A stretch of DNA of 64,000 nt from Salinarchaeum sp. IM2453 (lineage in GTDB: Archaea > Halobacteriota > Halobacteria > Halobacteriales > Salinarchaeaceae). Below are positions 4,954 through 62,676 of this stretch, in pieces. The stretch covers positions 809,226 to 873,225 of the forward strand of contig NZ_CP081183.1 of the NCBI RefSeq assembly GCF_019693215.1, read 5' to 3'. Under the pieces are notes generated by a model. That model saw only the letters and a program-made list of their open reading frames with translations. It had not been told where the DNA came from and did no database searches. The stretch's first letter is position 1, and each line of letters begins with the position of its first letter. The translations under genes were made by a program, and so were the position numbers.

Positions 4954-5024
4954 GTGAACTACCTCTGCCTACTCACTCACCGCTGACGCGGTTCGCTCCT
5001 TGAGGATGGGGACGTAGCCTGTAA
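4954..5024 (-). repeat. Family C mini-element (71 bp)
   Basis: Read on the minus strand it starts TACAGGCTACGTCCCC, continues with ATCCTCAAGGAG and ends GGTAGTTCAC. The base run before it, TTAACTCT, is also found before the family-B copy at 25921. It is a deletion form of the 360-bp elements at 15682 and 50002, with no coding content. Confidence 0.75.
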
Positions 5025-5124
5025 GAGTTAAACCAAAAACAGTTGATATATTGATCTGGTATAGGCTCTTGCCTAACTGAGCGAAACAATGATCAGATAA
5101 GCGATATCGTTACTGATTGGCGTT

Positions 5125-15630: not shown

Positions 15631-15681
15631 TATGAAATATAGGTGACGAGAGTGAATATATGTTACCTCAAATTTAACTTT

Positions 15682-16042
15682 TGCAGGCTACGTCCCCGTC
15701 CTCAAGGAGTGAGTAGTGCGGGGATACAGCCGTCACTTAGCCACAGCAAAAACAGTCAACTCAATTGCTAGCAAACACTGAATTGTGACGGGGTTTACTC
15801 ATGAGGTTGGCTTCGAGTGGGATTATAACCGCGGTCAGACTCTATTTCCCGTCACCAGCAAGTAGGATTTGGACAATCCAAAGCAACGCCTGCGGAGACT
15901 GGCACCGCTGTGGACACGGATGCCACCCATGAAGTGTCTGCAAGTGCCGTCGTGGAATCAGAAAGTCCTGTTCGAAAGACAGGAAGCCCCGTCCTCAACA
16001 AAGAGGGTGCAGCCCGAGCAGAGTAGGGCGGGGGAAGTTCAC
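15682..16042 (+). mobile_element. Family C long element, TnpB-deleted IS605-like derivative
   Basis: It opens with the family-C left end (GCAGGCTACGTCCCC, then CTCAAGGAGTGAGTAG), preceded by TTTAACTT, and closes with GTAGGGCGGGGGAAGTTCAC, an IS200/IS605-type right end. Between them is a long-range inverted repeat (CCGTCAC near 15731, GTGACGG near 15785) and the last 55 codons of TnpB. A nearly identical 360-bp arrangement lies at 50002-50361. The retained 3' half corresponds to where the overlapping omega-RNA (sotRNA) of IS1341-type elements is encoded, so the element could still yield a structured RNA. Confidence 0.75.
15862..16026 (+). pseudogene. TnpB C-terminal tail (55 codons) inside the long element
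   Basis: The frame reads VGFGQSKATPAETGTAVD and later SAVVESESP, ending ARAE and TAG. This resembles the C-terminal tail of haloarchaeal IS1341-type TnpB proteins as I know them. All catalytic parts are missing. The second copy at 50181-50345 is also 165 bp and in frame to a stop. Confidence 0.7.
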
Positions 16043-16060
16043 AGAATATCAAGGCGGATG

Positions 16061-16135
16061 CCACGGGGTCGTCCGGAAATCTCCGATTTCCGTGATCACG
16101 AGAATCGAAGATGCTCGAACGACTTGACCCCGTGG
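16061..16135. repeat. Family E 75-bp repeat, copy 1
   Basis: It is bounded by CCACGGGGTC and GACCCCGTGG (inverted) and contains the core TTTCCGTGATCACGAGAATC. The copy at 61641-61715 is also exactly 75 bp, with a similar core and ends CCTTGGGG/CCCCGAGG. It contains no gene. Confidence 0.6.
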
Positions 16136-16331
16136 AGGAAGCCGACACGCAACCGAATACAACATATTCAAAGAGTTTAAAATCGTATTCGAAACTAGTA
16201 ACTCGCAGCCAGATGTGTTGTGAGTTACGGGCTGTCCGTCAACCAGCCCCTCGAAGTTAGGGACGTTGAACGTGAATGGTCAGACCAGACCTACCGAGTA
16301 CTTCTCGGTTAGAACGGGAGTCAACTAACAA

Positions 16332-16354
16332 GCCTCGGGGCTTGACCCCGAGGC
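16332..16354 (+). repeat. Family A right-end hairpin, copy 1
   Basis: GCCTCGGGGCTTGACCCCGAGGC is a near-perfect hairpin followed by AGTTGAC. The shape (hairpin plus short tail ending TTGAC or TTCAC) is that of an IS200/IS605 right end. It lies just downstream of the thiC stop, so it could also act as a transcript 3' structure. Confidence 0.65.
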
Positions 16355-16393
16355 AGTTGACAGAGACACGATTTCCAGATGGATCAATTTGAG

Positions 16394-22960: not shown

Positions 22961-23023
22961 GTGAACTACCTCTGCCTACTCACTGTTGTTGGCGGCTCTT
23001 TGAGGACGGGGACGTAGCCTGCA
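22961..23023 (-). repeat. Family C mini-element (63 bp)
   Basis: On the minus strand it starts GCAGGCTACGTCCCCGTCC and ends GGCAGAGGTAGTTCAC. It is almost identical at both ends to the copy at 4954-5024 and differs in the centre. Confidence 0.75.
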
Positions 23024-23122
23024 AAATTTAAGTTGACTCAAATGAGAGTATTGTTTGTTATAAAACGTCCATAGAGATTATCGCATAAGCGCCAGAAAAA
23101 CACAAATATATTTTGCCCCTGC

Positions 23123-38640: not shown

Positions 38641-38924
38641 GATCTATAATCTCTACCTTCAAAGAGCGCATCAGCGCGAACAGAGTGAGGTAGTCCATAG
38701 AAATATCAAGGGAGATACCACGAGGCTTGTCTCCATGGAAGAAGCCGATGTTCGAGAGTACGCATGAACTATTCTGGGTGTAGTACGGTATATGAGTGCC
38801 AGTTGGGCAGACCGCAACTGACATGGGCTAGCAGTCACCTGACCTTCAACTCAGGGACAACAAAGGTGAACGTTGATTACACACCTGTCGAGTTGATCGG
38901 GGATATCTGGAGTCCACTGACAGT
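38641..38924. other. Unassigned gap between DUF211 and antiporter genes
   Basis: The minus strand is open for about 80 codons running into the family-B element, but I do not recognise a protein in it. No RNA gene is visible. It is probably decayed mobile DNA between two element remnants. Confidence 0.3.
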
Positions 38925-38945
38925 CTTTGGGGTTTGACCCCGAAG
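38925..38945 (+). repeat. Family A right-end hairpin, copy 5 (degenerate)
   Basis: CTTTGGGGTTTGACCCCGAAG followed by CAGTTGAC has the same layout and tail as copy 1, with base changes in the outer stem. Confidence 0.55.
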
Positions 38946-39017
38946 CAGTTGACCGTTAAAATCGTTATTGGTATTCAACACGTACGAAAAAATGAACGTC
39001 ATATTCTGTACGAGGAT

Positions 39018-49924: not shown

Positions 49925-50001
49925 TTCAGAACGCGCAACAAACCCGTTCGATATGCAACTGCGTATCGAATAGTGAATAGCATATTTGTATTTTTAAGTT
50001 C

Positions 50002-50361
50002 TACAGGCTACGTTCCCGTCCTCAAGGAGCGAGTAGGGCGGGGATACAGCCGTCACTCAGCCGCATCAAACCATTCAACAAATTGATACCAGACATTGAA
50101 TTGTGACGGGCTTTACTCATGAGACTGGCTTCGGGTGAGATCATAACCACAGTCAGACTCCATCTTGCCGTCACCATCGAGTAGGGTTGAGACAATCCAA
50201 AGCAACGCCTGCGGAGACTGGCACCGCTGTGAGCCTGTCCCAGCGCAGGATAGTGCTTGGAAGTGCTGTCGTGGAACCAGAAACTCCGGTCCGAAAGGAG
50301 AAAGTCCGCCCTCAACAAAGCGAGGGCGCAGCCCGAGCGGAGTAGAGCGGGGTAAGTTCAC
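50002..50361 (+). mobile_element. Family C long element, second TnpB-deleted copy
   Basis: It has the same structure and almost the same length as 15682-16042: left end TACAGGCTACGTTCCC, an inverted CCGTCAC/GTGACGG pair, the last 55 TnpB codons (50181-50345, VGLRQSKATPAETG), then the right end GAGCGGGGTAAGTTCAC. It is preceded by TTTTTAAGTT. It is inserted between hisA and hisB and may separate a former operon. Confidence 0.75.
50181..50345 (+). pseudogene. TnpB C-terminal tail (55 codons), second copy
   Basis: It reads VGLRQSKATPAETGTAV, then SAVVEPETPVRKE and ends ARAE-TAG, parallel to 15862-16026. It has the same number of codons, with many third-position and some amino-acid differences, so the two copies are not recent duplicates. 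Confidence 0.7.
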
Positions 50362-50399
50362 TAACTGACAAGGGGATCGATCGTTGAGAGAGATTCGCA

Positions 50400-62598: not shown

Positions 62599-62661
62599 GT
62601 AAACTACTTCTGCTTACTCACTTCCGTCGTGCACTCCTTGAGGACGGGGACGTAGCCTATG
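62599..62661 (-). repeat. Family C mini-element (63 bp)
   Basis: On the minus strand: TAGGCTACGTCCCCGTCC at the left, GAGTAAGCAGAAGTAGTTTAC at the right end. It is the same length as the copy at 22961. It lies 15 bp past the cheW stop. Confidence 0.7.
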
Positions 62662-62676
62662 GAAGTTAGAGAAATA

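Follow-up and report, generated by a model that had tools for sequence, protein, structure and literature searches.

TnpB-less IS200/IS605 derivatives with a conserved omega-RNA scaffold in haloarchaea, candidate guide-RNA-only mobile elements

The genome of Salinarchaeum sp. IM2453, a 2.66-Mb single contig, carries within the stretch of 64,000 nt analyzed here (the window; GC content, 47%) two short elements that look like tnpB transposons from which the nuclease gene has been lost. By protein identity (62-70%), the nearest named relatives of the host are Halobacteria. They raise the question of whether a mobile element can keep the guide RNA of a TnpB system, dispense with the nuclease, and still make use of the RNA. 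The first-pass annotation described two elements of 360-361 bp that keep both ends. Both exist and both ends are kept in each, but their true lengths are slightly greater: ~364 bp from the flank TTTAAC through GTTCAC for copy 1 (15679-16042), and ~363 bp from the flank TTTAAG through GTTCAC for copy 2 (49999-50361) (Table 1). The two copies share 84-91% identity, in blocks. The left-end part of copy 1 resembles the leader of the intact TnpB elements L042 and L046, and most copies share the TTTAAC flank, which intact tnpB elements also have on their left side.

Table 1. Features of the two TnpB-less elements and of neighboring or related elements in the window
Feature	Position	Strand	Remark
Copy 1, left flank TTTAAC (target site, presumed TAM)	15673-15678	+	TAM role presumed
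Copy 1, left end: near-terminal imperfect palindrome and spacer	15679-15784	+	
Copy 1, domain M, 72-nt structured module	15785-15855	+	R2, 80.0 bits, E 1.1e-20
Copy 1, last 55 tnpB codons and TAG, open	15859-16026	+	Frame not conserved among copies
Copy 1, omega-RNA scaffold (helices A-D), right-end hairpin	15884-16042	+	R1, 79.3 bits, E 1.1e-16
Copy 1, end motif GTTCAC	16037-16042	+	
Second mobile element (right end ...CCCCGAGGCAGTTGAC, target TTCAC), abutting copy 1 right end	16043-16360	+	
Copy 2, left flank TTTAAG	49993-49998	+	
Copy 2, TnpB-less element	49999-50361	+	
Copy 2, domain M	50103-50174	+	R2, 81.8 bits, E 3.5e-21
Copy 2, omega-RNA scaffold	50203-50361	+	R1, 58.3 bits, E 7.1e-12
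Copy 2, guide position	50362-50379	+	No second genomic match at <=1 mismatch
Terminal-only relative (~74 bp), fused ends, without omega-RNA scaffold	4954-5027	-	
Terminal-only relative, fused ends	22961-23026	-	
Terminal-only relative, fused ends	62599-62663	-	

To which class do these elements belong? Copy 1 is too short for a transposase and has no transposase ORF, and its longest ORF has no match in Pfam. Neither of the ends, TTTTGCAGG... and ...AAGTTCAC, is an inverted copy of the other, and near-terminal palindromes (CCCCGTCCT/AGGGCGGGG) are present; in the copies inspected, the left TTTAAC and the right flanks are unlike, with no target duplication. With neither terminal inverted repeats nor target duplication seen, we rejected an identity as MITEs, as well as one as complete IS200/IS605 (IS1341-type) elements, of which the final 55 codons of tnpB are left, plus one piece from its middle. 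The family to which both copies belong, here PATE-I, has ~13 long copies in the genome, whose alignment shows a near-constant left flank, TTTAA[C/G], and the right end GTTCAC (GTTTAC in two copies); both ends match those of intact tnpB elements, which relates the family to the IS605 type. The same genome contains ~20 terminal-only elements of 65-80 bp (three within the window, of ~65-75 bp), 34 matches to the TnpB domain PF01385, 14 open tnpB ORFs with a right end of PATE-I type, and one Y1 TnpA. Similar elements are the PATEs of Haloquadratum walsbyi, transposase-free relatives of IS605 that were classed as degenerate IS605 elements and one of which, HqIRS71, the nearest parallel, retains part of the tnpB end (PMC3119063). 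Ours resemble them in the near-terminal palindromes, in the absence of a transposase and of terminal inverted repeats, in ends common to IS605-type elements, and in the occurrence of terminal-only forms. The available part of that paper, which is older than omega-RNAs, treats PATEs as non-coding degenerate elements and describes no omega-RNA scaffold, domain M (see below), or covariation.

The first-pass annotation had also proposed that the elements keep the omega-RNA region. At the Rfam gathering score, the sole match in the window is a tRNA. We built a covariance model, R1, from 14 TnpB-linked right ends, most of which belong to an open tnpB; six come from the host genome, eight come from other haloarchaea, and zero PATEs were included. 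Its structure, with helices A (CCTG/CAGG), B, and C, the right-end hairpin D, and an end-motif pseudoknot, matches the published description of the omega-RNAs (sotRNAs) of Halobacterium, which have a pseudoknot, an end motif, and a right-end hairpin (PMC12558985). Among the input sequences, 93% of cells are paired and 12 pairs are double-changed, a level reached in 0 of 500 shuffles. The two best R1 matches in the window are copies 1 and 2 (79.3 and 58.3 bits), and the folds of both agree with those of TnpB-linked omega-RNAs, which supports the proposal. Across the genome, R1 finds 85 matches, 54 of them above 36 bits; of these, 14 lie at an open tnpB and ~40 away from any intact tnpB. As in the omega-RNA or reRNA of TnpB, the scaffold consists of the tnpB 3' end and the right end, with a right-end hairpin, an end-motif pseudoknot, and a guide position in the flank, from which the guide of those systems is taken (PMC12558985, PMC8612924). 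Unlike in those systems, the nuclease gene is missing and the scaffold is preceded on its 5' side by a fused hairpin that stems from mid-tnpB; PATE-I additionally has an extra hairpin, plus one extra base ahead of the end motif. Stand-alone omega-RNAs, guide RNA loci that lack a neighboring nuclease gene, have been reported for IscB, whereas the present ones are of the TnpB type and form part of a unit that is, as a whole, mobile and present in multiple copies.

If the 3' end of tnpB is retained, is it retained as protein or as RNA? Exactly the last 55 TnpB codons had been claimed to remain in frame. The codon count stands, as both copies are open for 55 codons to a TAG, with TnpB protein similarity starting about there; a frameshift breaking these codons was a candidate that we dropped after alignment with TnpB tails. 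The frame itself is not the conserved feature of PATE-I, because copy 2 shows, relative to copy 1, a loss of 2 nt followed by a gain of 2 nt before reaching the same stop, and because the frame varies among 12 PATE-I copies, some of which end at another stop. As for RNA structure, the first-pass annotation had cited a hairpin that pairs as CCTGT/ACAGG in one copy and CTCC/GGAG in the other. This pair of sequences reflects simply a 2-nt deletion in copy 2, and the hairpin (helix 5) has zero compensatory pairs in 11 copies and is absent from most TnpB-linked omega-RNAs; hairpin E was rejected as covariation evidence. Covariation among copies, although absent from the cited hairpin, is found in other helices and in domain M. 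In the PATE-I omega-RNA (11 copies), 89.4% of cells are paired and 15 cells are double-changed versus 5.6 in shuffles (0 of 500). The end-motif pseudoknot, GUUC with GAAC of the scaffold, is paired in 93% of PATE-I cells, and helix C occurs in three sequence versions, every one of which pairs. These versions (L009 and L001-L004) look like module exchange between elements. In 4 of 12 copies, on the other hand, helix B is disrupted with no compensating change, and the PATE-I omega-RNA is no less diverged than the remainder of the element (0.19 for unpaired omega-RNA versus 0.14 for domain M and its surroundings). Conservation in PATEs correlates weakly with the columns that are invariant in TnpB-linked omega-RNAs (rho 0.19, P 0.03), a correlation that we did not use as evidence.

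All aligned members of the PATE superfamily carry, between left end and scaffold, a module of 71-74 nt that we named domain M. A plain MAFFT alignment (22 sequences) shows 91% of its cells paired and 11 of 20 pairs double-changed, with 51 double-changed cells versus 18.6 in shuffles (0 of 500) and at most 11 when the partners were slid as a control. At one position, G-U is the commonest pair type (16 of 22). The domain M model, R2, matches both window copies at E near 1e-20, and among 196 genomes of the order it exceeds 45 bits in five (the host, G053, G059, G108, and G148); in G053 and G148, the two of these read besides the host, PATEs were confirmed. The core of the module also gives weaker matches, which in most of the TnpB loci read fall within tnpB, mostly at residue ~112-135, where the encoded motif YRSxTYxQSGFxLDKKxGQTV precedes RuvC-I by ~75-90 residues. 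Since the core matches sit inside tnpB, the elements kept two separate pieces of this gene, the middle (domain M) and the 3' end, so that the earlier statement that none of the nuclease is left was incomplete: domain M of copy 1 stems, in its core, from tnpB codons ~112-135. Taken together, these results well support that the element is an IS200/IS605 deletion derivative of the PATE kind with a complete omega-RNA scaffold and domain M.

The M core is also constrained in intact genes. In 46 tnpB ORFs, which are related to one another and were in part found using R2, 357 of 414 pairs of the 9-bp core stem can form, compared with 223 +/- 8 when codons were redrawn among synonyms with each ORF's own usage, and double changes number 8 versus 3.2 in shuffles. 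The M core is thus favored beyond synonymous codon choice inside intact tnpB genes. An example of such a coding-sequence hairpin is found in L043 at 1972-2013, on the minus strand.

A sister family, PATE-II, found via L187, is TnpB-less in all copies and occurs, at 82-88% identity, both in the host and in members of two further haloarchaeal families. Its omega-RNA is 97.3% paired, with 14 double-changed cells versus 6.0 in shuffles (0 of 500); counted as pairs with double changes, the figure is 5 versus 4.5, not above shuffles. Within the family, G-C is swapped for C-G in helix A and U-A for C-G in helix C. Helix D has three further changes in its apical hairpin, which one templated event could have produced, and our argument thus rests on helices A and C. 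The swaps in these show compensation in the omega-RNA that arose after TnpB loss. The eight elements compared have zero indels in the 133-nt omega-RNA versus many upstream, and copies outside the host genome mostly score 105-111 bits with R1. In a small sample, each of the three PATE-II genomes has tnpB and TnpB-type omega-RNAs, while two genomes from the host's family that are devoid of this omega-RNA carry no PATE.

Does the flank of each copy still provide a guide? The first-pass annotation had suggested examining whether the sequence after each right end targets its donor or other genomic sites. The guide position is kept. For copy 2, the guide matches only itself at <=1 mismatch, the nearest other genomic sites being one with 2 and one with 3 mismatches, which fits a guide directed at its own empty site. 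In copy 1, the 18 nt past the right end are no longer donor site, being the left end of another mobile element that inserted exactly there. All four other inspected copies of this second element adjoin TTCAC, and it used the PATE right end as its target, replacing the donor-site guide. We rejected a guide of copy 1 aimed at the second element family: matches exist, but those inspected adjoin TTCAC, not TTTAAC. The second element represents another PATE-like family (right end CCTCGGGGCTTGACCCCGAGGCAGTTGAC, target TTCAC), also seen at 38704-38953 and in L290 and L291, with a possible relationship to the one TnpA element of the genome (L171). That single TnpA adjoins sequence like the second element family, not PATE-I.

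Could a nuclease act on these RNAs in trans? Each of the 14 open tnpBs that share this omega-RNA type fits the RuvC-I pattern, and 11 fit all three RuvC patterns, the remaining three missing one (RuvC-II in L045 and L046, RuvC-III in L051). Given these 14 genes, it is possible that the orphan guide RNA works with a TnpB encoded elsewhere. Loading in trans is possible in principle, because ISDra2 TnpB assembles with its RNA, and works with it, when the RNA comes from a separate plasmid (PMC8612924). Our best explanation, to which we give about an even chance, is that the elements are guide-RNA-only mobile PATEs that use TnpA and TnpB in trans. In this model, the PATE, composed of left end, domain M, the last 55 tnpB codons doubling as scaffold, and right end, would be transcribed, and its RNA loaded by TnpB from one of the 14 open genes. 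TnpA, also in trans, would move the element, excising it from one chromosome copy, whose donor site reseals; TnpB, guided by the flank next to TTTAAC, would then cut the resealed site, and repair from another chromosome copy would restore the PATE, which would thus parasitize both proteins. For copy 1, guiding would be broken or redirected, since another element inserted at its right end and replaced the guide. In favor of this explanation we counted the R1 matches, the pair counts of PATE-I and PATE-II, the spread, indel-free scaffold, and R1 scores of PATE-II and its co-occurrence with tnpB, domain M, the 14 open tnpBs, and the ISDra2 precedent; against it, the divergence of PATE-I, its helix B breaks and its extra hairpin and base, the lost guide of copy 1, the position of the only TnpA beside the second family, and the persistence of terminal-only copies, which show that element ends persist by themselves.

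A serious rival, above all for PATE-I, is a hitchhiking relic, in which the elements would spread or have spread via TnpA-recognized ends, the omega-RNA and domain M being remnants of an old deletion, carried along in slow decay and devoid of RNA function. Several PATE-I copies show decay of helix B and hairpin E, PATE-I omega-RNA divergence is not below that of the rest of the element, ~20 terminal-only elements do without the omega-RNA, and the Haloquadratum paper calls PATEs degenerate (PMC3119063). Against this explanation stand the compensatory changes that helices A and C and domain M underwent in lineages lacking TnpB, the zero indels in the PATE-II omega-RNA, the PATE-II scaffolds of 105-111 bits kept in other haloarchaeal families, and the two separate tnpB pieces, both kept and both folded. 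We regard the relic explanation as a real but somewhat doubtful possibility overall; it is nearly as likely as function in trans for PATE-I, and less likely for PATE-II.

The conserved structures might also act by other means. IS200/IS605 transposition uses ssDNA hairpins at element ends, and both helix D and the left palindrome are suitably placed to serve TnpA or host replication as DNA rather than RNA. Domain M and helices A-C are internal, however, and the terminal-only elements lack them; the G-U pairs, the commonest type at one M position and universal among the copies at one position of helix C, fit RNA better, and R1 was learnt from omega-RNAs overlapping tnpB. We thus consider a purely ssDNA role very improbable. 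A role of the element RNA as a decoy or regulator, titrating or repressing TnpB, or tnpB mRNA via the M hairpin, appears unlikely, if less so: the M hairpin is common to tnpB mRNAs and constrained there beyond protein, and the copy 1 guide is no longer its donor site, but the element retains the guide position, end motif, and flank of a guiding element.

Extending the guide-RNA-only explanation beyond the host genome, we tentatively propose, at somewhat less than even confidence, that such elements form long-lived, horizontally spread haloarchaeal transposons whose structure was selected after TnpB loss and which use TnpA and TnpB in trans, with the M core as a second, previously undescribed functional RNA element in tnpB mRNAs and PATEs. 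We found no TnpB-less omega-RNA elements in the open-licence literature searched. If true, omega-RNA systems would have non-autonomous riders that supply the guide alone, TnpB would take on, beyond its role as a cis-acting retention device, that of a shared resource, and the host genome's far greater number of omega-RNA loci than of matching tnpB genes would be explained. PATEs would offer a ready natural test of trans loading, and the M hairpin, lying within the coding sequence of tnpB, would count as a new RNA element, testable in any haloarchaeal TnpB.

Some loci of G148, another haloarchaeon, show further variation. In the PATE-II copies L286, L287, L288, L305, and L306, several palindromes have been inserted close to the left end, resembling the SMR-A insertions of Haloquadratum. 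L307 and L308 represent a third type of omega-RNA locus, with no intact tnpB within the stretch that was read, in which two extra hairpins lie inside omega-RNA helix B and leave the helix unbroken.
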